Assembly (NCBI GenBank): GCA_947172415.1
Contig: OX359197.1
Coordinates: forward strand, 6,139,673 to 6,203,672
Direction: 5' to 3'
Source: Chondrosia reniformis
Lineage: Eukaryota > Porifera > Demospongiae > Chondrillida > Chondrillidae
Length of the DNA: 64,000 nt
The position numbers were made by a program, and so were the translations under genes. Position 1 is the stretch's first letter. Each line of letters starts with the position of its first letter. Shown piece after piece: positions 1-48,025 of this stretch. The notes under the pieces are model-generated. The model searched no databases and was not told the origin of the DNA. It was given only the letters and a program-made list of their open reading frames with translations.

Positions 1-530
1 CTACCTGGACACATCTCTATGGTGGTTGCGGTTCCCATAGAGGTTGGTAGCGCTTAGACTCTGAAGCTGTCTCCTAATCGGTTGGTGCCATAGAGACGTG
101 CTCACCAATAATCCGGATTTCGGGGGGGTTCCACGTAATGTGGGATTGGCATCTGATATCTTAGGATTCATATGAGTCGGCCATATCGAGAAGAACTGGT
201 TCTTCTCACGCAAGTGACACCCAAAGCTCAACTCGGCAGAGCGTTACCACCGATCCCGGCCTCTGAGCGTCGTGGATGGTAGCGTTCGGTATGGTCCAAT
301 TTTTTTCCTTTGGAGTTTCTTTAGCAATCGATTGGCGATTTTTCACTTTAGCGACATCCATATATTATAATATGGACAGATACTACTTCAAAACAATCAA
401 GTATTACAGAGTGAATATCCACGTGCATTAAAATCTTTAAAAGCGTTCTCGTCATTCAAATATACATATAACAGTAACGTATTTTCAATATTCCCTTCTC
501 TAGGTCGGCCATTTATATTATTACGAAACT
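1..530 (-). repeat. Truncated inverted copy of the satellite-embedded 1.05 kb element
   Basis: Reverse complement of the 5' half of the element found eight times at 21-48 kb; it runs off the left edge of the window. Positions 1 to about 305 match the right-hand copies almost base for base, including the same 76-codon open frame. From about 310 to 530 the match falls sharply, although landmarks remain: a CTTTGG block near 309, an ATCCATATAT hairpin near 357 and a GGTCGGCC block near 504. After about 530 ordinary 169 bp monomers begin. Confidence 0.85.
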
Positions 531-2045
531 CCCGTACATTAAATTTCTATACAAGAATCTAATGTACATTTAGTGCTGTAACTCTGTCAATTGGAAAGAT
601 GTGAAGCTGAAACTTGGTGTTAGCATTCACAGACATCCTTAAAGCATATCCAAAGAGTTTTACAAATTTTGATGTGCACTCATATTTGTCCTATCTCTCA
701 CCATACATTAAATTTGTATAGCAGAATCTAATGTACATTTAGTGCTGTAACTCTGTCAATTGGAGAGATGTGAAGCTGAACCTTGCTGTCAGCATTCACA
801 GACATACATAAAGCATATCCAAAGAGTTTTACAAATTTTGATGTTCACTCATATTTGCCCTATCTCTCACCATACGTATATTAAATTTGTATAGCAGAAT
901 CTAATGTACATTTATTGCTGTAACTCTGTCAATTGGAAAGATGTGGAGCTGAAACTTGTTGTCAGCATTCACAGCTATCCTTAAAGCATATCCAAAGAGT
1001 TTTACAAATTTTGATGTTCACTCATATTTGCCCTATCTCTCACCATACATTAAATTTGTATAGCAGAATCTAATGTACATTTAGTGCTGTAACTCTGTCA
1101 ATTAGAAAGATGTGAAGCTGAAACTTGGTGTTAGCATTCACAGACGTACATAAAGCATATCCAAAGAGTTTTACAAATTTTGATGTTCACTCATATTTGC
1201 CCTATCTCTCACCATACATTAAATTTTATGCAAGAATCTAATGTACATTTAGTGCAATAACTCTATCAATTGGAAAGATGTGAAGCTGAAACTTGGTGTC
1301 AGCATTCACAGACGTACATAAAGCATATCCAAAGAGTTTTACAAATTTTGATGTTCACTCATATTTGCCTTATCTCTCACCATACATTAAATTTGTATAG
1401 CAGAATCTAATGTACATTTAGTGCTGTAACTCTGTCAATTGGAGAGATGTGAAGCTGAAACTTGCTGTCAGCATTCACAGACATCCATAAAACATATCCA
1501 AAGAGTTTTACAAATTTTGATGTTCACTCATATTTGCCTTATCTCTCACCATACATTAAATTTGTATAGCAGAATCTAATGTACATTTAGTGCTGTAACT
1601 CTGTCAATTGGAAAGATGTGAAGCTGAAACTTGCTGTCAGCATTCACAGACATCCTTAAAGCATATCCAAAGAGTTTTACAAATTTTGATGTTCACTCAT
1701 ATTTGCCTTATCTCTCACCATACATTAAATTTGTATAGCAGAATCTAATGTACATTTAGTGCTGTAACTCTGTCAATTGGAGAGATGTGAAGCTGAAACT
1801 TGCTGTCAGCATTCACAGACATCCATAAAACATATCCAAAGAGTTTTACAAATTTTGATGTTCACTCATATTTGCCTTATCTCTCACCATACATTAAATT
1901 TGTATAGCAGAATCTAATGTACATTTAGTGCTGTAACTCTGTCAATTGGAAAGATGTGAAGCTGAAACTTGCTGTCAGCATTCACAGACATCCTTAAAGC
2001 ATATCCAAAGAGTTTTACAAATTTTGATGTTCACTCATATTTTCC
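531..2045 (-). repeat. 169 bp satellite array, minus orientation
   Basis: About nine tandem monomers of 169 bp in the reverse orientation to the main 20-48 kb field. Each carries the reverse complement of the shared block TCTGTGAATGCTGACA and of the block GGTGAGAGATAGGGCAAA. Neighbouring monomers differ at a few positions. No gene seen. Confidence 0.9.
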
Positions 2046-3753
2046 CTACATATGGTGAGAGATAGGGAAAATGTAAAGATTTATGAAAATTTCAAATTCT
2101 CATTGGAAATGTTTCATACATGTCTGTGAATGCTGACACCAAGTTTGAGCCTCATATCTTTCCATTTGACAGAGTTAGAGCACCAAATGTACATTTATAT
2201 ACTGGTATACCAAATTAATGTATAGTGAGAGATAGGGCAAATGTAAAGATTTATGAAAATTTCAAATTTTTCTTGGAAATGTTTCATACATGTCTGTGAA
2301 TGCTGACACCAAGTGTGAGCTTCATATCTTTCCATTTGACAGAGTTAGAGCACCAAATGTACATTAATAGACTGGTATACTAAATTAATGTATTTTGAGA
2401 GATAGGGCAAATGTAAATATTTATGAAAATTTCAAATTCTCATTGGAAATGTTTCATACATGACTGTGAATGCTGACACCAAGTTTGAGCTTCATATCTT
2501 TCCATTTGACAGAGTTAGAGCACAAAATGTACATTAATAGACTGGTATACTAAATTAATGTATTTTGAGAGATAGGGCAAATGTAAATATTTATGAAAAT
2601 TTCAAATTCTCATTGGAAATGTTTCATACATGACTGTGAATGCTGACACCAAGTTTGAGCTTCATATCTTTCCATTTGACAGAGTTAGAGCACAAAATGT
2701 ACATTAATAGACTGGAATACTAAATTAATGTATGGTGAGAGATAGGGCAAATGTAAAGATTTATGAAAATTTCAAATTCTCATTGGAAATGTTTCATACA
2801 TGTCTGTGAATGCTGACACCAAGTTTGAGCCTCATATCTTTCCATTTGACCGAATTAGAGCACCAAATGTACATTTATATACTGGTATACCAAATTAATG
2901 TATTGTGAGAGATAGGGCAAATGTAAAGATTTATGAAAATTTCAAATTTTTCTTGGAAATGTTTCATACATGTCTGTGAATGCTGACACAAAGTTTGAGC
3001 TTCATATCTTTCCATTTGACAGAGTTAGAGCACCAAATGTACATTAAGAGACTGGTATACTAAATTAATGTATTTTGAGAGATAGGGCAAATGTAAATAT
3101 TTATGAAAATTTCAAATTCTCATTGGAAATGTTTCATACATGACTGTGAATGCTGACACCAAGTTTGAGCTTCATATCTTTCCATTTGACAGAATTAGAG
3201 CACCAAATGTACATTTATATACTGGTATACTAAATTAATGTATAGTGAGAGATAGGGCAAATGTAAATATTTATGAAAATTTCAAATTCTCATTGGAAAT
3301 GTTTCATACATGTCTGTGAATGCTGACACCAAGTTTGAGCTTCATATCTTTCCATTTGACAGAGTTAGAGCACCAAATGTACATTAATAGACTGGAATAC
3401 TAAATTAATGTATTGTGAGAGATAGGGCAAATGTAAAGATTTATGAAAATTTCAAATTCTCATTGGAAATGTTTCATACATGACTGTGAATGCTGACACA
3501 AAGTTTGAGCTTCTTATCTTTCCATTTGACAGAATTAGAGCACCAAATGTACATTTATATACTGGTATACTAAATTAATGTATAGTGAGAGATAGGGCAA
3601 ATGTAAATATTTATGAAAATTTCAAATTCTCATTGGAAATGTTTCATACATGTCTGTGAATGCTGACACAAAGTTTGAGCTTCATATCTTTCCATTTGAC
3701 AGAGGTAGAGCACCAAATGTACATTAAAAGACTGGAATACCAAATTAATGTAC
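2046..3753 (+). repeat. 170 bp satellite array, plus orientation
   Basis: About ten monomers of close to 170 bp in plus orientation, starting head-to-head with the previous block at the motif CCCTACATATGGTGAGAG. They form a subfamily distinct from both the left minus block and the right field (TTTATGAAAATTTCAAATTC in place of TTTCATCAAAATTTCAAAAA), so the left array has its own history. Confidence 0.9.
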
Positions 3754-4259
3754 GTATCTCTCACCATACATTAAATTTGTATGCAAGAATCTATTGTACA
3801 TTTAGTGCTGTAACTCTGTCAATTAGAAAGATGTGAAGCTGAAACTTGGTGTTAGCATTCACAGACATCCTTAAAGCATATCCAAAGAGTTTTACAAATT
3901 TTGATGAGCACTCATATTTGTCCTATCTCTCACCATACATTAAATTTGTATAGCAGAATCTAATGTACATTTAGTGCTGTAACTCTGTCAATTGGAGAGA
4001 TGTGAAGCTGAACCTTGCTGTCAGCATTCACAGACATCCATAAAACATATCCAAAGAGTTTTACAAATTTTGATGTTCACTCATATTTGCCTTATCTCTC
4101 ACCATACATTAAATTTGTATAGCAGAATCTAATGTACATTTAGTGCTGTAAGTCTGTCAATTGGAAAGATGTGGAGCTGAAACTTGCTGTCAGCATTCAC
4201 AGACATCCTTAAAGCATATCCAAAGAGTTTTACAAATTTTGATGTTCACTCATATTTGC
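3754..4259 (-). repeat. 169 bp satellite block, minus orientation
   Basis: Three monomers of the minus-oriented subfamily, joined to the preceding plus block at GTACGTATCTCTCACC and followed by another orientation switch at CCCTACGTATGGTGAGAG. Confidence 0.88.
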
Positions 4260-4440
4260 CCTACGTATGGTGAGAGATAGGGCAAATGTAAAGATTTATG
4301 AAAATTTCAAATTCTCATTGGAAATGTTTCATACATGTCTGTGAATGCTGACACCAAGTTTGAGCTTCATATCTTTCCATTTGACAGAGTTAGAGCACCA
4401 AATGTACATTTATATACTGGTATACCAAAATAATGCATCA
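4260..4440 (+). repeat. Terminal satellite monomer, plus orientation
   Basis: One monomer of the plus-oriented left subfamily; satellite homology stops near 4,435 in front of a short TA microsatellite at about 4,465-4,480. Confidence 0.8.
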
Positions 4441-4477
4441 TCAAAGCTTTAGGTTAATGTAGTGTATATATATATAT

Positions 4478-4645
4478 ATCAGATCTTAAAATGCCCAATT
4501 TTTTCTATCAAGACACATACGTACAATTTTCCAGTTTTGAGATGTATTGGAAATACTGCATATATGTGTTTGAAAATATTTTGGGATCAGAAGAATTTTC
4601 TTTGGCTGACGATTGGCAAAATTTCACTTTAACCACATCCATTTT
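4478..4645 (-). repeat. Decayed relic of the 1.05 kb element lacking its core
   Basis: In reverse orientation the sequence follows parts of the element that normally lie on both sides of the GC-rich core: first the block AGTTTTGAGATGTATTGGAA, identical to the element's 3' half, then TTCTTTGGCTGACGATTGGC, which resembles the flank beside the core's other end. The core between them is absent. It could be a copy that never received the core or one that lost it. The 82-codon open frame here is not considered coding. Confidence 0.6.
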
Positions 4646-4752
4646 ACATTATTACAGTAAATTAAAGGTACATTATTATCACAGCTATCAAAGGTACATA
4701 ATCATGAGTATAATATATAGCTGGAACCAAATTCATTGAAGTCAATCATAAA

Positions 4753-6567: not shown

Positions 6568-6612
6568 ATGAGCATTCCTACACTGATTAGCTAGGGAGTC
6601 ATGAAATAGCCT

Positions 6613-11135: not shown

Positions 11136-14100
11136 ATGGCGAACCATGGATGGAAGATGAAATCCTTACAGAAAAGAAAGCCATCCAAACCATATGATCG
11201 TCCAAAGGTTAGCATTTTCACATAAATCTTAGGTCAAACGAGGAAGTGAGTATGCGCGTATTTGTGTAACATTCGGACAAGCATGCAAATTTCAAGAAAC
11301 TGTACGGTTAGGTTAATTGTTAAGGACACGTGATGTTTGTGACATCCCCGCTATTTTGAGTATACAATACTTTGTGTAGAGCTTTATTTCGAAAGTGAAG
11401 GATATTTTCAACCCATGGTCCTGGACAAGAAGCTCAAGATCAGAAGAAGCGAAAGATGAAGTAGAGGTTGATTCAGAGAGTCCTACAAGCAGCCAACAAG
11501 GTGAACGACAGCCATCAGCATTTAGAAGCCCACGAACAACAATTGGAGGGCCCAGTAGAGTAGATTACACACCCTCTGTTAAGGACTATAACCCTTTAAA
11601 CGACCCCAGGAATCTCTCCTTCAGGAGTAAAGCTACCATTGGTACTCTCTCAACCGATGTCTTCAAAGATGACAAGATTCGAAACATATTTGGGGAACCG
11701 CTGCAACCTGACGACATGGTTGACGTCATGAGCACCAAGTCTACCTGTGGATCTGATGTTAGTTCACAAAGCATCGGAGAGGAAGAAAAAGCAGATAACG
11801 AAAGTATGTCGTCTTCCGTTGAAGAGACATTTCCTCCTTCTGATGGTAACACTGGAAAATTGGTGCTCAAAGAAGTACTTGCTCCAAGTACAAAGGTGTC
11901 ACCTAAAGGGAAATCCCCTCTCAGTGGCAGTTCAAGACTGGGTTTGCAGTCTTCACCTCAGTCTCTGAATATCCATCAATCAATGATAAGGGGAGACCCC
12001 CTTTTATCTAAGAGTTTGTTTTCATCCTCAGAGAGGTTCACTGATGAGAGGCGTGACCATCAAGTTGCCACACCCCTCCCAGCCTTAGATAGATCATCAA
12101 GGAATGCTTCTCCAGTCTCTCTTGTAAACAGAGGACACAAAGCTTCACCATCGTTTTCACTGCCGGCATATATAACCCCAGTGAGAGTAAGTTATACAGA
12201 TTTATAATGTGGTCCAAAGAGTTAAACACTACCAGTTATATAAAGGGTGTGTCTTATCCTGCTTCATATTTTGTTACTATAGCAACGGAGTACCATGAGT
12301 CGAAGTTCCTTTAATTCCCCCTATTATCAATCAGGAAAGTCATCTTATTTTTCTTCTACTACAGTAAGTTCCAGTACAAATATACGTACGTATGTAAGAA
12401 TATACGTATGTAGCAAGTTAGAAGCTGTGATAGTAGTTTATTAGTATTTTAATTGTATGTCAATTCTGATTTATCTCACTGTAGAAATCCCCTTTTAAAA
12501 GGTCAAGGCCTGAATCTCCCTCTTCTCCTGAAGTGAGTTGTTTTATGAATGCTATGGTTCTCCTGAGCTTAAGTTTTATGATCCTCTCCCTCGATCTCTC
12601 TTGTGGATGTGTAGTTACCGCCGATACGTCAGACTGTCACTGCCACGCCCGCTGGTAGCACCTCCTCCACCACACAAACTGCAAAGAGGATACTGCAGAC
12701 TCTTCAAACAGTTACATCACCAGTCCAGGTGAGGTCACATGACCTTTTGACCATATATGGGTGACATCATAGGATAGTATATATGACCTCTATACACCTA
12801 GGTATTGCATATATGTAGATAATTACAGTGGAATCGCATTAATTTGGCTACGGTTTAACTCAAACTTCATGCTAAATCGAACAAAGTTCGAAGTCCTTGG
12901 ACAAGTGCTGTACAAATGTATAGAAAAGTCTCTCATTAGTTTGAATGTCAATCAGCGAATCGCATTAACTGGAAATATTTAGAAGAACATAAAATGTACA
13001 TTTAACGTAATGGAGACTCAATAAATCATAGCTCCATCGTTTCTGACTCCCTTCATAGCCTTTCAAGGAAAGGACAGGCACCACTAAAACACATGCAAGT
13101 TACAGGGAACTTGCATGCGGCCATTTTTCGTGCAACGTGCAGATTATTTTTCTATTAACACATTCACTATCACTGTTATAACCTTTTGATTGTATTGATA
13201 TACATGCTCCACTAAATTCTTATTGAATTTCATTACTTTCAATAACTGGAACTTTCCGTGATGTCCCCAGTTAATGAGATTTCACTTTATGTATACATAC
13301 AACATACATACGTATTAAAGAGGTTATATATGTATGTTTGTGTGTGTGTGTGTGCGTGTGAGGGAGAACCTCCTCCAAAATTCTTCACTTAATCTCTCCT
13401 CATTCTATTAGCTTTCATATGTGCTGCCACCAAAGCCACCGCTCCAGCCTGTTGCTAAGAGACGGCGGGGTAACCTTGATGCCAGAGCCCCTCCAGTGGC
13501 CTCCTTGGTTACGCCCAGCATAGCCTCTGTTACTCTTAGGAATTCATCCACTGAACAAGTGAGATATTGTATCTACGTATGTGTTAAGATACATTCACCT
13601 ATGTACGTACTACAGTGCGTTACATACGTAGTTCTTAATTATAAACTTTATTATCTTTCTTTACCATAGTCTCTATTAGCTGGCAGTAGAGATTCTGCTC
13701 CTGAAGGTCCTGGTCACAACCAATCTACCTCTCTTCTGTCACAGTCCCACATGGTGCGGCATGCCTCAGCAGACCAATCTATTTCCAAAGGTCATGAAGG
13801 TCAAAGGTCAAAGGGGCCCTCCCCAAAGAGGGGACCTCACCAGGTCCAACACCAAGAGGTTTGCACATCTAGTATTATACATGTCTAGTTTAAGATCTAA
13901 ATACGTACATACTTATGTAAATATGTATGTACTTCGCTCCATTGGCCCATTTTTATGTACGTATATACGTACATAATATGTATTTACTTGAGAGTCATAT
14001 GTAGTTTTACTTCCATTTCCTCCCTAGAACCCCTTTGATCTTCCCCCACCTATCTCTCTTCCTGCACTGAAGAACATGGCTCCATTTTCTATTGGTATTG

Positions 14101-17100
14101 TTTCCAAGCCAACCACGTCACATGTCGATCACATGACCCAGTCAACAGCTGTGACTATGAGCTCTCCCAAAGTGCAGTTCTCTCCAACAGTATCCAGTCC
14201 AGTGATACTAAATATTTCTCCTGATTTCAAAATTCCCAACATGGTAACTAAGGGAACTGTATCACCTAGCAACAGTAACGACTTTATTTTTGCGACACCA
14301 ACTCAGAAGTCCTCACCAAAAATAAATGTACAAAATGACAACAAGGTACATATCATCTGAAGTGCCTAGCAACAGTCCTGCATCCATGTTTTTTTGAAAC
14401 AAATACCTGTTAAGTTTCTAAAGACGCATCTTGGTAACATATTTGCATATACGTATGTGCATCTACGTACGTGCGTACTTACGTATATTTATTAAAGAGG
14501 ATTTAACGTTCACTTTCCTGTCTCTCATTTCAGCAGTTTATGTTCAGCCCTCCAGGCACGGCGGTAGGCATGGTGCGATCATCCATGCCCACCGCCATCT
14601 CCTCTTCTCCTCCTTCAATGCCGTCACTCAGTTCTGCTGATTTTTCTGTCAAGGTCATGTCAGACGGAAAGTCACTTATCTCTCAGGAGAGTACTAAGAA
14701 AGAAACTCTGAAATCAGATCTAAAATATGGTGAGGAGTGAGTGTGGCAGAGCAACATTTCATCTTGCCAACGTTTCCTTTCCTTTGTGTTCCTCAGGGAA
14801 GCCAACTGAGCCATCCAGTGTAATAGATCTAGATGAGAGTGATAATGACAGTGGTGCTGCCTCCAAACCGGGAAAACCTTCAGAGCCACTTGAAAGGCAG
14901 CCAATCAAGCCAAAACTAGTGGTATTGTGCGCATGTGGATATGTGTGTACTCACGTCCTTGTTAGGTCCTAGCGCCATTTTTTACACCTAGGGTATAAGG
15001 TGTGTTAGGTCCTAGTCTATGAAAGGAATTAACTGAAATGTAAACTTTATACGTATCAGGATCTTTATTCTGACATATCTTCGGTAGATCTATTTAGAGA
15101 GTGAATCTTGCATAGATTATATATGCATGTTGGATGATGGGAAATTAGCGAATTCGCTATCTTTAGGTGTACATTCTACCATTTTGATTTCAGATCACCT
15201 CCAGATACCCACTCCCAGTATTAGCAGTTACATACATACATGTATTTATAATAGATATTTATACACAATTTACTTTTATGTGTAGCTTACGAATTTTGCT
15301 TCTGGTAATATGTGGAGCTGTGACAGTTGTCTTCTTCAAAACAAGGAAGGGGACACTGAGTGTATGGCTTGTAAAGCCAAAAGGCCAGGCTCAGAGAAGG
15401 TACAGGTTGGGACACCTGGTCATTATGAACACTAACTCTCGGTCATTACACTCTTACCTTTCTGTTGCAACCCTAATCTCCATGGCAATGTATAAATGGC
15501 TGTTTAATATTACTGTAGGCACCTCTTAGGCAGTCCCAAACAGCTGCTGAAGGAGGCTGGACCTGTGACACTTGTATGGTACCAAACGGGAAGGAGGCAG
15601 AACAGTGTGTCTGCTGCTCTGCTAGTAAACCAGGCTCTAAAAACACTGCACCAAAGGTTAATATGTACATACATACGTATATGTATATTTATCTATATAC
15701 GTACATGTACGTACATACAGTACTGAAAATAGGTAGTAGTTGGTCATTGGCCAATTTCCAAGCAAACATTCCTTGGTGCAGAAATTCTATGTTACAATCG
15801 GCCATTTTGTCTGAGCACAAAATTGCTTTTGTTTAGGCTCAGTTGTTGCTAGGTGACTAATATAATAGATTTCCTGGCTGGTATCAATTCCTATTCCCAA
15901 TTGTGTGAATTTGTACCACTTCAGTTTTATGAGTAACTTATTATTTCTGTGGTTATCCACCCATCATTAGACCTCTTCTGTGACGAGCACTCTGATGAAG
16001 CTACCAGTGACAGCGGCTGCTGAAGGAGGTTGGACCTGTGACACTTGTATGGTACCAAACGAGAAGGAGGCAGAACAGTGTGTCTGCTGCTCTGCTAGTA
16101 AACCGGGCTCTAAAAATGCTTTGGAGGTATAGACATATGTTACTACGTATGTGCATTGTTTTTATGTAAATTGTGTGAAATACTGTATATTTGTACTGAA
16201 GTATTGCCGAGTTGAGAACATTCATGTATGTATGTATGTACTGCTATACTTACAAAAATGGCTCCTTACATGCAGTAAACATGCTCAAGTATGCTGTAGG
16301 ACTGCACAGATTTTTAATATTCCTAGATCTACGTACCAAAATATTCTAGAAACTGCTAGAATGGTGGTGTACCTACGTATTTCTCTACAGGCTCCTCCCC
16401 CTTCAAGTCAATCGGCCTCCTCAGCTAGCGGATTTAAGATAAATGTTTCATTGCCTAAATTCAACTCCAATGAGAAGAACCTATCTGGTGGGTTGAATGT
16501 ACCAGAAGGTGGATTTAAGCTTCCTGCATTCCAAACATCAACTATTCCAAGTGAGAGCAAACCTGCCGAACCTGAGAAGAACTTGCAGAAAACTGTAACC
16601 TTTGCTTTAGGAGAAGCAACCAAGAGTCAAACTACACAGTCTTCAGAAAAGATAACTGTCCCTACTGGTCAAGGGTTGAAGTTGGGTGGATCCGGAGGAT
16701 TGAAGTTGGGTGGATCCGAAGGATTGAAATTGGGTGGATCTGAAGGATTGAAATTGGGTGGATCTGCAGGATTGAAATTAGGTGGATCCGAAGGATTGAA
16801 ATTGGGTGGATCCGAAGGATTGAAATTGGGTGGATCTGCAGGATTGAAATTGGGTGGATCCGAAGGATTGAAGTTGGGTGGATCCGAAGGATTGAAGTTG
16901 GGTGGATCCGAAGGATTGAAGTTGGGTGGATCCGAAGGATTGAAGTTGGGTGGATCTGAAGGATTGAAGTTGGGTGGATCCGAAGGATTGAAGTTGGGTG
17001 GATCTGAAGGATTGAAGTTGGGTGGATCCGAAGGATTGAAGTTGGGTGGATCTGCAGGATTGAATTTGGATCAAGGTAACTTGAAGTTGTCAGGTAATGC

Positions 17101-20100
17101 TTCATTTAAGGGCGGTATTCTCAAGCTAGGAGCTTTGAGCAAGCAAGATTCATCAACTACATCCAAGTCTACTTTACTGTCTTCATCCTCAGGAAACCAG
17201 TTTGAACAAAATCTGTCCAAACAATCTACTGGTATGTATTAAAAGGTTACCTGATTAATGTAATAATGATGCTGTTTAAATTTAGGTTTTCATTCAAAAT
17301 TGATATGTTCTCCCACTGTAGCCCCCAGTGGGCCTTTATTTGGTACAGTGCCCCAGTCAGCTAATACTTCAACTCCCTCAATAAATGATACTCCATCCTT
17401 TCTCAGTGCCTTTAAAAAGGAAGGTGGTGGCAGTATATTTTCTTCCCAGTCACAGCAAGGTAAATAACATGACAGCCACAATACACATTTTTGATTTCAA
17501 ACTAAAAAGATTTTATTTATTACATTTATATGCGTATATTTAGGAGGCTCGTCAGTTTCTAATGGATCCAGTTTAACAGGAGGAAATCTCTTTAACTCTC
17601 AACAGACTAAGTCTGAAAAGGGACCAGTAGGAAGTTCTGTCTCTATTATAGGGAACAATCTTCAGTTAGGACTCCCCAGCACCTCACAGTCTGGCAGTCT
17701 CCAGTTGGGACTCCCCAGCACCTCGCAGTCTGGCAGTCTTCAGTTAGGACTCCCCAGCACCTCACAGTCTGGCAGTCTCCAGTTGGGACTCCCCAGCACC
17801 TCGCAGTCTGGCAGTCTTCAGTTAGGACTCCCCAGCACCTCACAGTCTGGCAGTCTCCAGTTGGGACTCCCCAGCACCTCACAGTCTGGCAGTCTCCAAT
17901 TGGGACACCCCAGTACCTCACAGTCTGGCAGTCTCCAATTGGGACACCCCAGTACCTCACAGTCTGGCAGTCTCCAATTAGGACTCCCCAGTACCTCACA
18001 GTCTGGCAGTCTCCAGTTGGGACTCCCCAGTACCCCACAGTCTGGCAGTCTTCAGTTGGGACTCCCCAGCACCTCGCAGTCTGGCAGTCTTCAGTTGGGA
18101 CACCCCAGTACCTCACAGTCTGGCAGTCTCCAGTTGGGACTCCCCAGCACCTCGCAGTCTGGCAGTCTTCAGCTGGGACATTCCAGTACCTCGCAGTCTG
18201 GGGGTGTTACTTTACAATTGAATCAGTCCTCAGGAGGATCAGGTATGCAATTCAATTCACCCAGTCAGAATCTTTGAGATGGTTCATCATCCAGAGACAC
18301 AGTTTGTTTCTTAAGAATTGGATGTTTCGTCCCTGGTGGTCTTCTTGGGATCCCGGGGTTGAAATGTTCGATTCTCAAGAAATAAACTGCATCTCTAGAT
18401 GCTCAAAAGACTAAAGATGAACCATTAAGCATGGTTAAATTAGAAAAATTTAGCTCCATTGTTGCCAGAAGATATTTTTTTGATACATACGTACCTCTAT
18501 TTGCAGTCAGTTTGCATTGCTCTTGTCTTTATATGTATGTACAACTTCATTTGTTAGGTCCGTCTCTGTTTGCAAGTGGGGGATTGTTTAAGGAGCCTTT
18601 GGCACCTTTAAGCTTGTCTGGGCAGCAGAGTGCCCCACCCAACCAAACACCTTCCATCAATCCCTTCTTCAGTGGAGGGTTATCTGCTACAGCTTCTCCC
18701 TCAAATGCCAATCCTTTCCAAGCAGGTACACACATATATACATACATACATACATACATACATATGACTTGTCTATAATGCCATATTCCAAACCTATGTA
18801 TGACACTAAGGAACATGAATAAAATAGACTAAAACACAATTTTGTTAGACTAATGACTTAGGGCAAACCTATAGAGCTTTGGATGAGGATACAGTTAGGC
18901 TTCTTTTCTTCCCTCTCCACTGGGCCAGTTGGGTTTCTCTGTTGGGCCAGATGACTGTTTCAGGCCATAGGTACGTAGGTCATTCTTATGTGTTGGATTT
19001 CAAATTTATTTAAATATAAATAAATAGTATTTAGTATTTAAGTATTTAAATATAATATAAGTATTTATTCTTGTATTTAAATATAATATAATATAAATAC
19101 TTGTGGTTAAGGATATCAGACTATGGGTGGACAGATTGCCAATGGATTATGATGTACGTAACTAAAAAAAGTCCATTTTAATACTGATCTGTGTAATTTT
19201 ATGCATATAGATCAGTTTCGCTTGTGGACAATACTAACTTAGTACCTCCATGTGTGACCGACTGCTACTACGCTATGTCCACTCTGTAAAGGTTGTAGCA
19301 CTGTCACCCTGGCGTACATATTCATCACATGGTGTTGAGCATTTCTACAGTTTGTTTTGATATTTTTAGATGTCTTGTCAAAGGTCCTCAAGTTATGTGA
19401 TTTCCGGTAGAAATTGGATGAAATAGAGCCTTTTCTAATTATTTATATTTAAATTACTAAATTTAAAGTGAAGTGCGGGAGTTAGTAACATTAAAGTCAA
19501 TCCAAAGGCTTTGATAAAGAAATGAATAATCACTGGTAGATATTACACCAACTACCAGATCAGCCCATCAGAGGCCAAAACAGCTGTCAGTGGGTTCTCT
19601 GATAATTTTTGTCATCTTGTATGACTGGGAGGCGATCACTAGTTGCCATTCAATAGGACTTTGGTCTCCCAAGCAAGATATGACTTTGGTCTCCCAAGCA
19701 AGATATGACTTTGGTCAATTGGGTGCTTGACGTAATACGTATCTTTCAGTGGTTATTCATTTCGTCAAATTGTATAATATCCTTCATTTTGACTAAACCA
19801 GAATTGGAACTTGTTAGAACAGTTTTAGTCACTTTCATGCATTATATATTTTTCCACAAAACTAAATTCAAATGAATGTTATATTTAAGTACATTCCATC
19901 TCTTTTAGGAGTGCAAGGACAAGGGAGCTTTAGTACTCAGAACTCACTAACCTTTGGAATTAACCCAATGAACAGAAGTAGCGAAATGTTGCAATTCGGT
20001 GGACAAGGAGGCACTGCTCCAAGCGGGGCCCAGAATCCATTTCAAGTTAGCAAACCTCCCATGTTTAATGCCAGCTCGCCGCCAGTGATCAACTTTGCTA

Positions 20101-27950: not shown

Positions 27951-30900
27951 GATGTCTGTGAATGCTGACACAAAGATTTAGCTTCATATCTCTCCATATA
28001 AAGTTAATGTATGGTGAGAGATAGTGCAAATTTTAAGTTTCGTCAAAATTTCAAAAACCTAATGGACATGTTCTATAGATGTTTGTGAATGCTGACACAA
28101 ACAGTTAGCTTCATATCTCTCCATTTGATAGAGTGACAGCCCTCAATGTACATTAAATTCTTGTATACAAAGTTAATGTATGGTGAGAGATAGGGCAAAT
28201 TTTAAGTTTCATCAAAATTTCAAAAACCCAATGGACATGTTCTATAGATGTTTGTGAACGCTGACACAAAGAGTTAGCTTCATATCTCTTCATTTGATGG
28301 AGTGATAGCCCTCAATGAACATTAAATTCTGTAATACAAAGTTAATGTATGGTGAGAGATAGTGCAAATTTTAAGTTTCGTCAAAATTTCAAAAACCTAA
28401 TGGACATGTTCTATAGATGTTTGTGAATGCTGACACAAACAGTTAGCTTCATATCTCTCCATTTGATAGAGTGACAGCCCTCAATGTACATTAAATTCTT
28501 GTATACAAAGTTAATGTATGGTGAGAGATAGGGCAAATTTTAAGTTTCATCAAAATTTCAAAAACCCAATGGACATGTTCTATAGATGTTTGTGAACGCT
28601 GACACAAAGAGTTAGCTTCATATCTCTTCATTTGATGGAGTGATAGCCCTCAATGAACATTAAATTCTGTAATACAAAGTTAATGTATGGTGAGAGATAA
28701 GGCAAATTTTAAGTTTCGTCAAAATTTCAAAAACCCAATGGACATGTTCTATAGATGTCTGTGAATGCTGACACAAAGAGTTAGCTTCATATCTCTCCAT
28801 TTGATAGAGTGACAGCCCTCAATGTACATTAAATTCTTGTATACAAAGTTAATGTATGGTGAGATATAAGGAAATTTTAAGTTTCATCCAAATTTCAAAA
28901 ACCCAATGGACATGTTCTATAGATGTTTGTGAACGCTGACACAAAGAGTTAGCTTCATATCTCTTCATTTCATGGAGTGATAGCCCTCAATGAACATTAA
29001 ATTCTGTAATACAAAGTTAATGTATTGTGAGAGATAAGGCAAATTTTAAGTTTCGTCAAAATTTCAAAAACCTAATGGACATGTTCTATAGATGTTTGTG
29101 AATGCTGACACAAAGAGTTAGCTTCATATCTCTCCATTTGATAGAGTGACAGCCCTCAATGTACATTAAATTCTTGTATACAAAGTTAATGTATGGTGAG
29201 AGATAGGGCAAATTTTAAGTTTCGTCAAAATTTCAAAAACCCAATGGACATGTTCTATAGATGTTTGTGAACACTGACACAAAGAGTTAGCTTCATATCT
29301 CTTCATTTGATGGAGTGATAGCCCTAAATGAACATTAAATTCTGTTATATAAAGTTAATGTATGGTGAGAGATAGGGCAAATTTTAAGTTTCGTCAAAAT
29401 TTCAAAAACCCAATGGACATGTTCTATAGATGTCTGTGAATGCTGACACAAAGAGTTAGCTTCATATCTCTTCTTTTGATGGAGTGATAGCCCTCAATGA
29501 ACATTAAATTCTGTTATACAAAGTTAATGTATGGTGAGAGATAGGGCAAATTTTAAGTTTCGTCAAAATTTCACAAACCCATTGGACATGTTCTATAGAT
29601 GTCTGTGAACGCTGACACAAAGATGTAGCTTCATATCTCTCCATCTGATCGAGTGATAGCTCTCCATGTACATTAAATTCTGTTATACAAAGTTAATGTA
29701 TGGTGAGAGATAGGGCAAATTTTAAGTTTCATCAAAATTTCACAAACCCAATGGACATGTTCTATAGATGTTTGTGAATGCTGACACAAAGAGTTAGCTT
29801 CATATCTCTTCATTTGATGGAGTGATAGCCCTCAATGAACATTAAATTCTGTTATACAAAGTTAATGTATGGTGAGAGATAGGGCAAATTTTAAGTTTCA
29901 TCAAAATTTGAAAAACTCATTAGACATGCTCTATAGATGTTTGTGAATGCTGACACAAACAGTTAGCTTCATATCTCTCCATTTGATAGAGTGACAGCCC
30001 TCAATGTACATTAAAATCTGGTATACAAAGTTAATGTATGGTGAGAGATAGGGCAAATTTTAAGTTTCGTCAAAATTTCAAAAACCCAATGGACATGTTC
30101 TATAGATGTTTGTGAATGCTGACACAAAGAGTTAGCTTCATATCTCTCCATTTGATAGAGTGACAGCCCTCAATGTACATTAAATTCAGGTATAAAAAGT
30201 TAATTTATGGTGAGAGATAGGGCAAATTTTAAGTTTCATCAAAATTTGAAAAACTCATTGGACATGCTCTATAGATGTCTGTGAATGCTGACAGAAAGAT
30301 TTAGCTTCATATCTCTCCATTTGATAGAGTTACAGAACTACAGTTAATGTAATGTTTTGTTAGAGAAAATTGCGTAATACTATATATGGCCGACCGTTAG
30401 AAGGTCTAATATTATAAGAAAGACAAAATTCCATACTATATATGAAAATCTAGAATACTTTCCAATTTTTTATACATAGGGATATGCACTGTGTAGTACT
30501 TGATTGTTATTGAAGTACTATCTATCCATATATTTTATATGGATCTCGTTGAAGTGAAATTTCGTCAATCGACAGCCAACGAAACTCCAAAGAAAAAAAG
30601 TTGGACCATACCGAACGCTACCATCCACGACGCTCATAGGCCGGGATCGGTGGTAACGCTCTGCCGAGTTGAGCTTTGGGTGTCACTTGCGTGAGAAGAA
30701 CCAGTTCTTCTCGATATGGCCGACTCATATGAATCCTAAGATATCAGATGCCAATCCCACATTACGTGGAACCCCCCCGAAATCCGGATTATTGGTGAGC
30801 ACGTCTCTATGGCACCAACCGATTAGGAGACAGCTTCAGAGTCTAAGCGCTACCAACCTCTATGGGAACCGCAACCACCATAGAGATGTGTCCAGGTAGG

Positions 30901-32966
30901 CCTACTATATAAGGTTTTTCGCTTCTATTTATATGAAGTTTTGTCCAAAGAAAACGGTTGTGGTTGGGACCTTTTTTAATATATTTCTCGTTATTTCCAG
31001 ATCAGTGAATTCTTTCAAGCAAGTTTAAAGACATAGGCAGTATTTGTGGTTCACCTGAAAACTGGGAAAAGCGAAAAAAATCCTGTAAGTGTCTTGATGG
31101 GCCGAGGAGAACGACTTTTCTCATCCCAATTATTTTCGAGAAATCGTCAATTTATTCCACTTTAATTCCAGACCAGGGAATCGTTCAAAGCAATTTTACA
31201 CACATACGCAGTATTTCCAATACATCTCAAAACTGTGGCAAATGGATAAAAGCCTGTATGTGTCTTGGTGGAGGGAGGAGAGCGACTTTTCATGATATAG
31301 AAAACTAGATATAGTGAGAGGTCCGATATTTATCGCCTATACGATATTAACGTCTATGATCGATATTTCAACTAGGCCGGTTTTATTAGATGTCTGTGAA
31401 TGCTGACACAAAGATTTAGCTTCATATCTCTCCATTTGATAGAGTGACAGCCTTCAATGTACATTAAATTCTGGTATACAAAGTTAATGTATGGTGAGAG
31501 ATAGGGTAAATTTTAAGTTTCATCAAAATTTCAAAAACCCAATGGACATGTTCTATAGATGTTTGTGAATGCTGACACAAAGAGTTAGCTTCATATCTCT
31601 CCATTTGATAGAGTGACAGCCCTCAATGTACATTAAATTCTTGTATACAAAGTTAATGTATGGTGAGAGATAGGGCAAATTTTAAGTTTCGTCAAAATTT
31701 CAAAAACCCAATGGACATGTTCTATAGATGTTTGTGAACACTGACACAAAGAGTTAGCTTCATATCTCTTCATTTGATGGAGTGATAGCCCTAAATGAAC
31801 ATTAAATTCTGTTATATAAAGTTAATGTATGGTGAGAGATAGGGCAAATTTTAAGTTTCGTCAAAATTTCAAAAACCCAATGGACATGTTCTATAGATGT
31901 CTGTGAATGCTGACACAAAGAGTTAGCTTCATATCTCTTCTTTTGATGGAGTGATAGCCCTCAATGAACATTAAATTCTGTTATACAAAGTTAATGTATG
32001 GTGAGAGATAGGGCAAATTTTAAGTTTCGTCAAAATTTCACAAACCCATTGGACATGTTCTATAGATGTCTGTGAACGCTGACACAAAGATGTAGCTTCA
32101 TATCTCTCCATCTGATCGAGTGATAGCTCTCCATGTACATTAAATTCTGTTATACAAAGTTAATGTATGGTGAGAGATAGGGCAAATTTTAAGTTTCATC
32201 AAAATTTCACAAACCCAATGGACATGTTCTATAGATGTTTGTGAATGCTGACACAAAGAGTTAGCTTCATATCTCTTCATTTGATGGAGTGATAGCCCTC
32301 AATGAACATTAAATTCTGTTATACAAAGTTAATGTATGGTGAGAGATAGGGCAAATTTTAAGTTTCATCAAAATTTGAAAAACTCATTGGACATGCTCTA
32401 TAGATGTTTGTGAATGCTGACACAAACAGTTAGCTTCATATCTCTCCATTTGATAGAGTGACAGCCCTCAATGTACATTAAAATCTGGTATACAAAGTTA
32501 ATGTATGGTGAGAGATAGGGCAAATTTTAAGTTTCGTCAAAATTTCAAAAACCCAATGGACATGTTCTATAGATGTTTGTGAATGCTGACACAAAGAGTT
32601 AGCTTCATATCTCTCCATTTGATAGAGTGACAGCCCTCAATGTACATTAAATTCTGGTATAAAAAGTTAATTTATGGTGAGAGATAGGGCAAATTTTAAG
32701 TTTCATCAAAATTTGAAAAACTCATTGGACATGCTCTATAGATGTCTGTGAATGCTGACAGAAAGATTTAGCTTCATATCTCTCCATTTGATAGAGTTAC
32801 AGAACTACAGTTAATGTAATGTTTTGTTAGAGAAAATTGCGTAATACTATATATGGCCGACCGTTAGAAGGTCTAATATTATAAGAAAGACAAAATTCCA
32901 TACTATATATGAAAATCTAGAATACTTTCCAATTTTTTATACATAGGGATATGCACTGTGTAGTAC
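27072..32966 (+). repeat. 5,895 bp higher-order unit, second copy
   Basis: Tandem repeat of 21,177-27,071. All stretches compared by eye are identical or nearly so. Very recent duplication or an assembly duplication. Confidence 0.85.
30335..31388 (+). repeat. Satellite-embedded element, copy 4 (long form)
   Basis: Exactly 5,895 bp downstream of copy 2, with the same long-form 3' half. Confidence 0.85.
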
Positions 32967-33855
32967 TTGATTGTTATTGAAGTACTATCTATCCATATAT
33001 TTTATATGGATCTCGTTGAAGTGAAATTTCGTCAATCGACAGCCAACGAAACTCCAAAGAAAAAAAGTTGGACCATACCGAACGCTACCATCCACGACGC
33101 TCATAGGCCGGGATCGGTGGTAACGCTCTGCCGAGTTGAGCTTTGGGTGTCACTTGCGTGAGAAGAACCAGTTCTTCTCGATATGGCCGACTCATATGAA
33201 TCCTAAGATATCAGATGCCAATCCCACATTACGTGGAACCCCCCCGAAATCCGGATTATTGGTGAGCACGTCTCTATGGCACCAACCGATTAGGAGACAG
33301 CTTCAGAGTCTAAGCGCTACCAACCTCTATGGGAACCGCAACCACCATAGAGATGTGTCCAGGTAGGCCTACTATATAAGGTTTTTCGCTTCTATTTATA
33401 TGAAGTTTTGTCCAAAGAAAACGGTTGTGGTTGGGACCTTTTTTAATATATTTCTCGTTATTTCCAGATCAGTGAATTCTTTCAAGCAAGTTTAAAGACA
33501 TAGGCAGTATTTGTGGTTCACCTGAAAACTGGGAAAAGCGAAAAAAATCCTGTAAGTGTCTTGATGGGCCGAGGAGAACGACTTTTCTCATCCCAATTAT
33601 TTTCGAGAAATCGTCAATTTATTCCACTTTAATTCCAGACCAGGGAATCGTTCAAAGCAATTTTACACACATACGCAGTATTTCCAATACATCTCAAAAC
33701 TGTGGCAAATGGATAAAAGCCTGTATGTGTCTTGGTGGAGGGAGGAGAGCGACTTTTCATGATATAGAAAACTAGATATAGTGAGAGGTCCGATATTTAT
33801 CGCCTATACGATATTAACGTCTATGATCGATATTTCAACTAGGCCGGTTTTATTA
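32802..33855 (+). repeat. Satellite-embedded element, copy 5 (long form)
   Basis: Long form; the monomer sequence immediately downstream follows that of copies 2 and 4 for about 250 bp and then diverges. Confidence 0.85.
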
Positions 33856-39800: not shown

Positions 39801-39834
39801 TTAGCTTCATATCTCTCCATTTGATAGAGTTACA

Positions 39835-40888
39835 GAACTACAGTTAATGTAATGTTTTGTTAGAGAAAATTGCGTAATACTATATATGGCCGACCGTTAG
39901 AAGGTCTAATATTATAAGAAAGACAAAATTCCATACTATATCTGAAAATCTAGAATACTTTCCAATTTTTTATACATAGGGATATGCACTCTGTAGTACT
40001 TGATTGTTATTGAAGTACTATCTATCCATATATTTTATATGGATCTCGTTGAAGTGAAATTTCGTCAATCGACAGCCAACGAAATTCCAAAGAAAAAAAG
40101 TTGGACCATACCGAACGCTACCATCCACGACGCTCACAGGCCGGGATCGGTGGTAACGCTCTGCCGAGTTGAGCTTTGGGTGTCACTTGCGTGAGAAGAA
40201 CCAGTTCTTCTCGATATGGCCGACTCATATGAATCCTAAGATATCAGATGCCAATCCCACATTACGTGGAACCCCCCCGAAATCCGGATTATTGGTGAGC
40301 ACGTCTCTATGGCACCAACCGATTAGGAGACAGCTTCAGAGTCTAAGCGCTACCAACCTCTATGGGAACCGCAACCACCATAGAGATGTGTCCAGGTAGG
40401 CCTACTATATAAGGTTTTTCGCTTCTATTTATATGAAGTTTTGTCCAAAGAAAACGGTTGTGGTTGGGACCTTTTTTAATATATTTCTCGTTATTTCCAG
40501 ATCAGTAAATTCTTTCAAGCAAGTTTATAGACATAGGCAGTATTTGTGGTTCACCTGAAAACTGGGAAAAGCGAAAAAAATCCTGTAAGTGTCTTGATGG
40601 GCCGAGGAGAACGACTTTTCTCATCCCAATTATTTTCGAGAAATCGTCAATTTATTCCACTTTAATTCCAGACCAGGGAATCGTTCAAAGCAATTTTACA
40701 CACATACGCAGTATTTCCAATACATCTCAAAACTGTGGCAAATGGATAAAAGCCTGTTTGTGTCTTGGTGGAGGGAGGAGAGCGACTTTTCATGATACAG
40801 AAAACTAGATATAGTGAGAGGTCCGATATTTATCGCCTATACGATATTAACGTCTATGATCGATATTTCAACTAGGCCGGTTTTATTA
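39835..40888 (+). repeat. Satellite-embedded element, copy 6 (long form)
   Basis: Separated from copy 5 by about 6 kb of monomers. A few private substitutions (GAAATTCCAAAG, CTCTGTAGTACTTG, CTCACAGGCC), one of which changes Thr to Ile in the 64-codon frame while the rest of the core is unchanged. Confidence 0.85.
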
Positions 40889-43643: not shown

Positions 43644-44697
43644 GAACTACAGTTAATGTAATGTTTTGTTAGAGAAAATTGCGTAATACTATATATGGCC
43701 GACCGTTAGAAGGTCTAATATTATAAGAAAGACAAAATTCCATATTATATATGAAAATCTAGAATGCTTTCCAATTTTTTATACATAGGGATATGCACTG
43801 TGTAGTACTTGATTGTTATTGAAGTACTATCTATCCATATATTTTATATGGATCTCGTTGAAGTGAAATTTCGTCAATCGACAGCCAACGAAACTCCAAA
43901 GAAAAAAAGTTGGACCATACCGAACGCTACCATCCACGACGCTCATAGGCCGGGATCGGTGGTAACGCTCTGCCGAGTTGAGCTTTGGGTGTCACTTGCG
44001 TGAGAAGAACCAGTTCTTCTCGATATGGCCGACTCATATGAATCCTAAGATATCAGATGCCAATCCCACATTACGTGGAACCCCCCCGAAATCCGGATTA
44101 TTGGTGAGCACGTCTCTATGGCACCAACCGATTAGGAGACAGCTTCAGAGTCTAAGCGCTACCAACCTCTATGGGAACCGCAACCACCATAGAGATGTGT
44201 CCAGGTAGGCCTACTATATAAGGTTTTTCGCTTCTATTTATATGAAGTTTTGTCCAAAGAAAACGGTTGTGGTTGGGACCTTTTTTAATATATTTCTCGT
44301 TATTTCCAGATCAGTGAATTCTTTCAAGCAAGTTTAAAGACATAGGCAGTATTTGTGGTTCACCTGAAAACTGGGAAAAGCGAAAAAAATCCTGTAAGTG
44401 TCTTGATGGGCCGAGGAGAACGACTTTTCTCATCCCAATTATTTTCGAGAAATCGTCAATTTATTCCACTTTAATTCCAGACCAGGGAATCGTTCAAAGC
44501 AATTTTACACACATACGCAGTATTTCCAATACATCTCAAAACTGTGGCAAATGGATAAAAGCCTGTTTGTGTCTTGGTGGAGGGAGGAGAGCGACTTTTC
44601 ATGATACAGAAAACTAGATATAGTGAGAAGTCCGATATTTATCGCCTATACGATATTAACGTCTATGATCGATATTTCAACTAGGCCGGTTTTATTA
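43644..44697 (+). repeat. Satellite-embedded element, copy 7 (long form)
   Basis: Long form; its 5' end shares CATATTATATATG and GAATGCTTTCC with copy 1, while the 3' half shares AAGCCTGTTTGTGTC with copies 6 and 8. Confidence 0.85.
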
Positions 44698-46971
44698 GAT
44701 GTCTGTGAATGCTGACACAAAGATTTAGCTTCATATCTCTCCATTTAATGGAGTGACAGCCGTCAATGTACATTAAATTCTGTTATACAAAGTTAATGTA
44801 TGGAGAGAGATAGTGCAAATTTTAAGTTTCGTCAAAATTTCAAAAACCTAATGGACATGTTCTATAGATGTTTGTGAATGCTGACACAAAGAGTTAGCTT
44901 CATATCTCTCCATTTGATAGAGTGACAGCCCTCAATGTACATTAAATTCTTGTATACAAAGTTAATGTATGGTGAGAGATAGGGCAAATTTTAAGTTTCA
45001 TCAAAATTTCAAAAACCCAATGGACATGTTCTATAGATGTTTGTGAATGCTGACACAAAGAGTTAGCTTCACATCTCTCCATTTAATAGAGTGACAGCCC
45101 TCAATGTACATTAAATTCTTGTATACAAAGTTAATGTATAGTGAGAGATAGGGCAAATTTTAAGTTTCATCAAAATTCAAAAACCCAATGGACATGTTCT
45201 ATAGATGTTTGTGAATGCTGACACAAAGAGTTAGCTTCATATCTCTCCATTTGATGGAGTGACAGCCCTCTATGTACATTAAATTCTGGTATACAAAGTT
45301 AATGTATGATGAGAGATAGGGCAAATTTTAAGTTTCATCAAAATTTCAAAAACCCAATGGACATGTTCTATAGATGTTTGTGAACGCTGACACAAAGAGT
45401 TAGCTTCATATCTCTTCATTTAATGGAGTGATAGCCCTCAATGTACATTAAATTCTGGTATACAAAGTTAATGTATGATGAGAGATAGGGCAAATTTTAA
45501 GTTTCATCAAAATTTCAAAAACCCAATGGACATGTTCTATAGATGTTTGTGAACGCTGACACAAAGAGTTAGCTTCATATCTCTTCATTTAATGGAGTGA
45601 TAGCCCTCAATGTACATTAAATTCTGGTATACAAAGTTAATGTATGGTGAGAGATAGGGCAAATTTTAAGTTTCATCAAAATTTCACAAACCCAATGGAC
45701 ATGTTCTATAGATGTTTGTGAACGCTGACACCAAGAGTTAGCTTTATATCTCTTCATTTGATATGATAGAGTGACAGCCCTCAATATGTATACATTAAAA
45801 TCTGGTATACACAGTTAATGTATGGTGAGAGATAGGGCAAATTTTAAGTTTCATCAAAATTTCAAAAACCCAATGGACATGTTCTATAGATGTTTGTGAA
45901 CGCTGACACCAAGAGTTAGCTTTATATCTCTCCATTTGATAGAGTGACAGCCCTCAATATGTATACATTAAAATCTGGTATACACAGTTAATGTATTGTT
46001 TGAGATAGTGCAAATTTTAAATATCATCAAAATTTCACAAACCCAATGGACATGTTCTATAGATGTTTGTGAATGCTGACACAAAGAATTAGCTTCATAT
46101 CTCTCCATTTGATAGAGTGACAGCCCTCAATGTAAATTAAAATCTGGTATACAAAGTTAATGTATGGTGAGAGATAGGGCAAATTTTAAGTTTCGTCAAA
46201 ATTTCACAAACCCATTGGACATGTTCTATAGATGTCTGTGAACGCTGACACAAGGATGTAGCTTCATATCTCTCCATCTGATCGAGTGACAGCTCTCAAT
46301 GTACATTAAATTCTGGTATTCAAAGTTAATGTATGATGAGAGATAGGGCAAATTTTAAGTTTCATCAAAATTTCAAAAACCCAATGGACATGTTCTATAG
46401 ATGTTTGTGAATGCTGACACAAAGAGTTAGCTTCATATCTCTTCATTTAATGGAGTGATAGCCCTCAATGTACATTAAATTCTGGTATACAAAGTTAATG
46501 TATGGTGAGAGATAGGGCAAATTTTAAGTTTCATCAAAATTTCAAAAACCCAATGGACATGTTCTATAGATGTTTGTGAACGCTGACACCAAGAGTTAGC
46601 TTTATATCTCTCCATTTGATAGAGTGACAGCCCTCAATATGTATACATTAAAATCTGGTATACACAGTTAATGTATTGTGTGAGATAGTGCAAATTTTAA
46701 ATATCATCAAAATTTCACAAACCCAATGGACATGTTCTATAGATGTTTGTGAATGCTGACACAAAGAATTAGCTTCATATCTCTCCATTTGATAGAGTGA
46801 CAGCCCTCAATGTAAATTAAAATCTGGTATACAAAGTTAATGTATGGTGAGAGATAGGGCAAATTTTAAGTTTCGTCAAAATTTCACAAACCCATTGGAC
46901 ATGTTCTATAGATGTCTGTGAACGCTGACACAAGGATGTAGCTTCATATCTCTCCATTTGATAGAGTTACA

Positions 46972-48025
46972 GAACTACAGTTAATGTAATATTTTGTTAG
47001 AGAAAATTGCGTAATACTATATATGGCCGACCGTTAGAAGGTCTAATATTATAAGAAAGACAAAATTCCATACTATATTTGAAAATCTAGAATACTTTCC
47101 AATTTTTTATACATAGGGATATGCACTGTGTAGTACTTGATTGTTATTGAAGTACTATCTATCCATATATTTTATATGGATCTCGTTGAAGTGAAATTTC
47201 GTCAATCGACAGCCAACGAAACTCCAAAGAAAAAAAGTTGGACCATACCGAACGCTACCATCCACGACGCTCATAGGCCGGGATCGGTGGTAACGCTCTG
47301 CCGAGTTGAGCTTTGGGTGTCACTTGCGTGAGAAGAACCAGTTCTTCTCGATATGGCCGACTCATATGAATCCTAAGATATCAGATGCCAATCCCACATT
47401 ACGTGGAACCCCCCCGAAATCCGGATTATTGGTGAGCACGTCTCTATGGCACCAACCGATTAGGAGACAGCTTCAGAGTCTAAGCGCTACCAACCTCTAT
47501 GGGAACCGCAACCACCATAGAGATGTGTCCAGGTAGGCCTACTATATAAGGTTTTTCGCTTCTATTTATATGAAGTTTTGTCCAAAGAAAACGGTTGTGG
47601 TTGGGACCTTTTTTAATATATTTCTCGTTATTTCCAGATCAGTGAATTCTTTCAAGCAAGTTTAAAGACATAGGCAGTATTTGTGGTTCACCTGAAAACT
47701 GGGAAAAGCGAAAAAAATCCTGTAAGTGTCTTGATGGGCCGAGGAGAACGACTTTTCTCATCCCAATTATTTTCGAGAAATCGTCAATTTATTCCACTTT
47801 AATTCCAGACCAGGGAATCGTTCAAAGCAATTTTACACACATACGCAGTATTTCCAATACATCTCAAAACTGTGGCAAATGGATAAAAGCCTGTTTGTGT
47901 CTTGGTGGAGGGAGGAGAGCGACTTTTCATGATACAGAAAACTAGATATAGTGAGAGGTCCGATATTTATCGCCTATACGATATTAACGTCTATGATCGA
48001 TATTTCAACTAGGCCGGTTTTATTA
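46972..48025 (+). repeat. Satellite-embedded element, copy 8 (long form)
   Basis: Last copy, near the right edge of the satellite field and about 640 bp before the GCKR start codon. Confidence 0.85.

Follow-up and report, generated by a model that had tools for sequence, protein, structure and literature searches.

A nearly uniform core inside a dispersed, satellite-embedded element of the sponge Chondrosia reniformis

INTRODUCTION

How can one block of DNA stay almost uniform at hundreds of places while the sequence on either side of it drifts? The question is raised by a stretch of 64,000 nucleotides (nt) of Chondrosia reniformis contig OX359197.1, here called the window, in which a first-pass annotation had picked out a recurring core inside an element embedded in satellite DNA. 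The element is ~1 kb long (about 21,044 to 22,045; element coordinates are counted within the window) and is bordered on each side by satellite of 169-bp units. Satellites and mobile elements are generally assumed to age uniformly over their length.

The reported C. reniformis genome comprises 117.37 Mb, 14 chromosomes, and a 17.45-kb mitochondrial genome; the main text of that report mentions repeat masking and contains no mention of satellites, transposition, methylation, or centromeres (PMC12181767). To judge by titles and the beginnings of abstracts, the first 15 of 3,794 papers listed for Chondrosia satellite DNA or repeats and the first 20 of 114 listed for sponge satellite DNA include no work on this repeat, which does not prove its absence in print. 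From searches of 117,379,552 bases in 15 contigs and from comparisons among sampled copies, we find that the copies are best read as being kept uniform by nonallelic exchange plus constraint, a mechanism of which part has been demonstrated.

RESULTS

The core is almost identical in all nine copies of the window. Nine near-identical copies had been claimed, and nine were found, eight on the plus strand and one inverted. The plus-strand copy that starts at 21275, over 343 bp, served as the reference query. The plus-strand copies at 24703 to 25045, 27170 to 27512, 30598 to 30940, 33065 to 33407, 43907 to 44249, and 47235 to 47577 match it at 343/343 positions and the one at 40098 to 40440 at 342/343, so that seven of the eight, query included, are identical across 343 bp and the remaining one has a single mismatch. 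Successive plus-strand starts are spaced by 3428, 2467, 3428, 2467, 7033, 3809, and 3328. The inverted left copy (1 to 302, minus strand) is cut by the window edge, the remainder of its core lying in locus L051; it is identical to 21275 to 21576 at 300/302 positions, i.e., with 2 mismatches in 302.

The eight right-hand copies are 98.0 to 99.8% identical to the query copy across the whole 1.1 kb, and the identity step is therefore visible mainly against other flank types. The left copy had been described as heavily diverged just outside the core, and it is: compared with the copy at 21275, it has 3/319 differences in the core, 30/96 in the distal left flank, and 17/95 in the proximal left flank. 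The satellite monomers around it belong to other subfamilies, again as described, with monA and monB on the left ~20 to 25% apart from monC on the right. Repeat and monomer comparisons place the left arrays, of 169/170-bp units in two subfamilies of opposite orientation, at 535 to 4263; repeat analysis and copy alignment place the 169-bp array that bears the eight elements at 20401 to 48600.

The identity step holds genome-wide. A 30-mer from the center of the core occurs at 881 places with ≤3 mismatches, 853 of them exact (reversed control, 0), and one from its left third occurs at 870 places with ≤3 mismatches, which puts the core at about 870 to 880 places. A right-flank 30-mer was found at 656 places with ≤3 mismatches (187 exact); because this 30-mer represents the flank type found in this window, more diverged types went uncounted. 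All 14 large contigs carry the core, and clusters lie along most of contig C1, the one contig listed whole. A single core 30-mer had 0 exact matches in viral and bacterial/archaeal contigs. Direct comparison gave 931 first-look candidates; the 40 that were scored, on 7 contigs, are all 100% identical (32 across 343 bp, 8 across 342 bp). This is what a recent neutral spread would produce, in which one core sequence swept the family very recently and its invariance is only apparent.

With copies aligned and identity plotted along the element in samples of 26 and 62 copies, the core and its flanks diverge unequally. The 26 copies, from C1 and the window, were unselected for core identity (9 identity-picked copies were left out); those retrieved were chosen among places where the central 30-mer is exact, which introduces a mild bias, given that this holds for 97% of places. 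In this profile the majority fraction per 20 bp is 0.98 to 1.00 at 21260 to 21579, 0.92 at 21580 to 21599, and 0.63 to 0.96 elsewhere, which sets the refined limits of the core in the reference copy at 21258 to 21592 (plus strand). The larger sample, with C2 added, was reduced from 62 copies to 44 representatives, whose 780 pairs have mean differences of 0.169 in the left flank, 0.014 in the core, and 0.285 in the right flank. The core thus differs by about 1 to 2% where the flanks differ by 13 to 39%, and its edges are sharp, the conserved zone fading gradually leftward and stopping more abruptly at the right. Between types, the left flank (21044 to 21257, plus strand) differs by 26 to 38% in its distal part and by 0 to 18% in its proximal part. 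In the right flank (21593 to 22045, plus strand), which contains 1.8 imperfect copies of a 161-bp repeat, the first 100 bp (21,600 to 21,700) differ by 28 to 41% between types and by 5% between type 1 and locus L040. The sharp step at one module is therefore real, genome-wide, and more striking than first noted.

The core is not wholly invariant. The near-identity first described needs a correction, in that it has exceptions: 96 places with a longer left third and 139 with extra central bases. Among 126 core records, which include identity-picked copies and overlapping loci, we counted 61 distinct forms and 92 variable sites over 343 positions; site 21314 has three alleles. The longer left thirds have 3 to 33 extra bases, 94 near 21337 and 2 near 21313 by a reading of the listing by eye. 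The forms near 21337 resemble nested deletions. Copies with a longer left third are by themselves spread over C1 to C14. The 139 central cases have at least 2 extra bases, mostly TA among 100 listed, and the right third has at least 4 extra bases at 4 places; these counts are only roughly comparable because the thresholds differ (2 in the center, 3 on the left, 4 on the right) and the anchors must match exactly. Several central insertions duplicate adjacent letters (CCAAT, AT, GATT, and a C run). The TA insertion at 21414 was found in copies of type 1, in copies of type C, and in L040, but L049, whose flanks are otherwise of type C, lacks it. Core variants, namely the longer left third and the TA insertion, are common to different chromosomes and flank types.

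Exchange and constraint both leave traces. As causes of the step, the first-pass annotation had offered recent insertion, gene conversion, or selection. Gene conversion or another form of nonallelic exchange and selection in the form of constraint are supported by mosaic flanks, a plateau in core divergence, and fewer core changes even within young arrays; the results do not support a recent insertion of the core as a module on its own (see below). In eight arrays with at least two close copies, 8/2659 core sites and 56/4510 flank sites vary, a ratio of 0.24 (p = 2.2e-5). Locus L043, with one truncated copy, was left out of this comparison, and L037 and L038 were dropped after the fact since the right flank is short in that type and the alignment enters satellite; with these two kept in, the ratio is 0.08. 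A recent neutral spread does not sit well with a core that varies less than its flanks even between neighboring young copies, nor with core variants held in common by several chromosomes and flank types, and it leaves without reason the sharp limits of the core and the retention of CpG in diverged flanks (see below); we regard it as very unlikely.

Between arrays, the core/flank ratio drops as flank divergence rises (0.24, 0.20, 0.10, 0.07, 0.05, and 0.06), from 0.24 at 1.6% flank divergence to 0.05 to 0.06 at 28 to 39%. Core divergence stays at 0.8 to 0.9% while the flanks rise from 4% to 13% and reaches 1.3 to 2.4% at 28 to 39% flank divergence. Constant constraint alone would give a level ratio and overwriting a falling one, as observed; the fall is support rather than proof, because the pairs are not independent.

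Two mosaic copies show flank types recombined around one and the same core. In L040, a left-proximal flank of type C (0/96 differences from L041) is combined with a type 1 right flank (5/100), and the core differs at 1 position from type 1 and at 2 from type C. In L003, the left-proximal flank is 31% different from the reference, while the distal left flank (8%) and the right flank (3 to 7%) are both of type 1; its core is identical to the reference (0/316), though this copy had been picked for identity.

Small insertions, including several tandem duplications, cluster near the middle of the conserved block, at 21,397 to 21,448; the clustering was observed post hoc, and some of the loci had been picked because they carry insertions. 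One reading of the exchange would make the core a self-homogenizing, "conversion-drive" module: a recurrent break or exchange hotspot through which ~880 dispersed loci copy one another despite flanks up to about 40% diverged, the small central insertions being footprints of repair. We think this improbable.

The element has probably moved as a unit; separate insertion of the core is not supported. The same left end, AATTGCGTAATACTATA.ATGGCCGACC, stands beside satellite of varied phase and orientation, which suggests that the element moved as a unit at some time. Satellite and element point the same way in the window and in L042 but opposite ways in L041 and L048. These junctions, together with the presence of copies on all 14 large contigs, would suit a nonautonomous mobile element in which the core is needed in cis and all subfamilies were recently mobilized by one machinery, with the flanks free to vary.

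Mobile elements that carry satellites are known (described in PMC7492417). Among the copies compared, however, neither right ends nor block edges are constant, and no target-site duplication was recognized by eye at 12 block edges. The open frames of L042, the one gene-bearing interval listed, show no transposase by eye; no family or genome-wide transposase search was made. An empty site was sought in one form, with the flanks joined at the core, and occurred at 0 places; other forms were not searched. To our knowledge, requirements in cis rarely fix ~330 consecutive bases, and the mosaics would require exchange in addition. Recent mobilization as the source of the uniformity therefore seems to us somewhat unlikely.

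Helentron/HINE elements are recognized by subterminal inverted repeats (subTIRs), a 5′ inverted repeat and microsatellite, and a 3′ palindrome; among the inverted repeats of 21040 to 21660 and the element ends listed, no subTIR shared between copies was identified by eye. The constant orientation of repeats between flanks that characterizes these elements is contradicted by the window and L042 on one side and L041 and L048 on the other. We claim no membership in Helentron/HINE or any known family.

An 11-bp direct repeat flanking the core, TCCAAAGAAAA, resembled a target-site duplication that would mark the core as a separate insert; the matching empty site occurs at 0 places (≤3 mismatches), and this candidate was rejected. 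A decayed core-less element at 4495 to 4645 (minus strand), in which alignment by eye joins the left flank to the distal right flank, has no sister among the 40 places scored of 898 candidates. Recent insertion of the core is thus unsupported by the joined-flank form tested and by the core-less copy.

Some copies outside the window have other surroundings. At L042:1932-7851, two elements of the same orientation lie 8 kb apart on either side of satellite-free, gene-like DNA, and both carry the longer left third of the core. Block-edge copies at L050:1149-1304, L091, and L043:918-1253 have lost their left part, up to differing points inside the core, and adjoin sequence that is neither satellite nor element.

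The element retains CpG inside CpG-depleted satellite. The left flank, core, and right flank have observed/expected CpG ratios of 1.35, 0.87, and 0.96, compared with 0.12 for the satellite and 0.49 for other DNA; the sample omits L010 to L016 and L093 (repeats of the window), and other loci in it partly overlap. Three window stretches have ratios of 0.26 to 0.40. The TG+CA ratio is 1.46 in the satellite and 0.96 to 1.02 in the element. As in CpG islands, the element is free of CpG depletion within a CpG-depleted genome. Youth alone explains this poorly, because the flanks keep CpG despite their divergence; the element may perhaps be an island free of methylation within the satellite.

The core is also dense in short palindromes, as had been noted: it holds 8 inverted repeats whose arms are 6 bp long, compared with 1.45 ± 1.38 in shuffled sequences, and 0/300 shuffles reach 8. 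The inverted-repeat listing includes the 20-bp GAGAAGAAC-CA-GTTCTTCTC (21370 to 21389) and CACGTCTCTATGG / CCATAGAGATGTG (21477 to 21567, with arms at 21477 to 21489 and 21555 to 21567). A protein-binding module, one of the two functions first proposed, would be compatible with the palindromes and with CpG retention.

Each edge of the core has a motif. At the right edge, a TATA-box-like TATAAGG (21585 to 21591, plus strand) is present in 118/120 core records; at the left edge, a T7 run (21270 to 21276, minus strand), a possible RNA polymerase III (Pol III) terminator, appears as a run of 6 or 7 in 117/120. The 120 records include identity-picked copies and some places counted twice. A reading of these motifs as parts of a high-copy noncoding RNA gene would have Pol III transcribe the minus strand (TATA-like box at 21588 to 21582, start near 21560, T7 at 21276 to 21270), with homogenization as in 5S or rodent 4.5SH arrays. 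Both ends of the conserved block would then coincide with a functional signal, and the TATA box with a T-run terminator matches a type 3 Pol III gene, by consensus only. The gradual left and more abrupt right limits of the conserved zone fit a plus-strand promoter better, because a minus-strand Pol III gene needs conserved sequence upstream of its TATA box; that region is 28 to 41% different between types and has no motif in common with one host U6 promoter, as judged by eye.

A comparison of U6 promoters did not advance the Pol III reading: it rested on one good U6 gene and one degenerate U6-like copy, no shared upstream motif was seen by eye, and no proximal sequence element shared with host U6 was seen upstream of the core (one U6 gene, by eye). 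The degenerate U6-like copy (L106:124-240) has no TATA box recognizable by eye; L105 contains the better match to U6.

The other function first proposed, a structured RNA, drew no support from Rfam, folding energy, or covariation. Rfam gave 0 matches at threshold in the window, and a permissive search (E ≤ 5; window 20900 to 22200, L073, L074, and L086) gave sub-threshold matches only. Folding z scores of the core are only −2.10 and −2.02 on the two strands (DNA z of −1.86 on the plus strand). Within the core, 110-nt windows have z scores no stronger than −2.2, compared with a mean of −1.04 and a standard deviation of 2.13 in 40 control windows, the latter inflated by one window of −11.84. Two double substitutions, at 21536/21561 and at 21336/21350 (the latter read off the alignment and counted on the plus strand), change both sides of a pair and preserve it, which favors an RNA gene. 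Over the minus-strand consensus structure (56 distinct forms, 500 shuffles), however, there is no clear excess of covariation, in a test that rests on few variants: the observed values are reached by 75 shuffles for cells paired, 242 for pairs changed on both sides, 58 for cells changed on both sides, 231 for further pair types, and 52 for the covariation score. A minus-strand lead from common variants was dropped, since in 56 haplotypes 28 variant cells keep and 20 break a pair on that strand, whereas on the plus strand 25 keep and 12 break one, and pair-keeping changes thus favor neither strand. Taken together, we consider a Pol III RNA gene unlikely.

Two further identities were tried and rejected. 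ARAGORN found no tRNA, either in the window or in the 10 loci scanned that have the longer left third, and most copies lack that longer third, which speaks against a tRNA or short interspersed element origin; TCGAATC, found in the longer left third of 8/10 loci scanned, resembles the Pol III B box. A coding function is contradicted by stops in all six frames of the core, and invariance at nearly every position also argues against it; no family search was made.

Other features of the window. Exons at 11380 to 20219 (plus strand) belong, by eye, to an FG-repeat nucleoporin-like gene with two coding minisatellites, of 24-bp and 39-bp units, at 16671 to 17069 and 17659 to 18201. An open frame at 53930 to 54625 (minus strand) has a C2H2 zinc-finger end that resembles KLF-type proteins, again by eye. 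Long minisatellites lie at 50690 to 51227 (31- to 36-bp units) and 58083 to 58733 (36-bp units, 98% matches over 18 copies).

DISCUSSION

We lean, tentatively, toward a promoter-like, protein-bound module, unmethylated within satellite, of a dispersed ~1-kb repeat that is kept uniform by concerted evolution, an account that we find plausible without calling it probable. The core would be the functional heart of the element within the 169-bp satellite arrays on all 14 large contigs and would act there much as a promoter does, as a DNA module bound by protein and free of the methylation of the surrounding satellite. Nonallelic exchange centered on the core would overwrite mutations, and copies with a damaged core would be less likely to be kept or re-amplified. 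The exchange may take the form of gene conversion and may center on the core, and the host may gain some benefit.

Several points weigh against this account. Four-gamete frequencies of site pairs are 0.25 between left and right flanks, 0.22 within the left flank, 0.20 within the core, and 0.08 within the right flank; the left-right value is not clearly above that within the left. The switch of L003 falls inside the left flank, so the data do not establish that exchange is limited to the core or centered there. Recurrent mutation can mimic some four-gamete patterns, and a few hypervariable sites, such as 21314, could contribute to the plateau in core divergence. The comparison of divergence uses pairs that are not independent, and the sample of copies is drawn largely from C1, C2, and the window. 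Protein binding, an unmethylated state, and transcription are predicted properties of the core.

In this sponge, renewal or protection acts on a single, sharply limited block of ~330 bases at about 880 places, while its neighbors drift. Such a repeat offers a natural test bed for what limits concerted evolution, be it function, an exchange hotspot, or mobility. It may also amount to hundreds of near-identical regulatory modules spread over the genome of an early-branching animal.

Known systems share parts of this pattern. Multicopy RNA gene arrays, such as 5S rDNA and rodent 4.5SH, have hundreds of units, one uniform block, and variable spacers. The sponge repeat likewise has hundreds of units and a uniform block in variable surroundings, but its core lacks a known RNA family or RNA-type covariation, and its copies lie on all 14 large contigs. 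The CENP-B box of alpha satellite is a protein-binding site conserved inside a diverging satellite, a likeness that extends to protein binding insofar as this is a candidate function of the sponge core. It is 17 bp long, compared with ~330 bp, and the sponge clusters run along most of contig C1.

In the oyster, Cg_HINE/Pearl/Helentron elements are described as having repeats in constant orientation between left and right flanks of 50 to 100 bp, subTIRs, and a 3′ palindrome (PMC7492417). The sponge element resembles them, as described there, in genome-wide dispersal, in nonrepeat segments joined to satellite-like monomers (140 to 180 bp in the oyster), and in modular recombination of segments; it differs from that description in being a ~1-kb element inside arrays, with satellite in either orientation and one internal hyperconserved block of ~330 bp. 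TCAST elements of Tribolium, too, link satellite to a complex unit, are dispersed among genes, and have a proposed regulatory role, whereas the abstract of that study names no module that stands out by its invariance (PMC3411249). The sponge element thus behaves like other repeat units that evolve in concert, but its uniform block is unusually long and sharply bounded.

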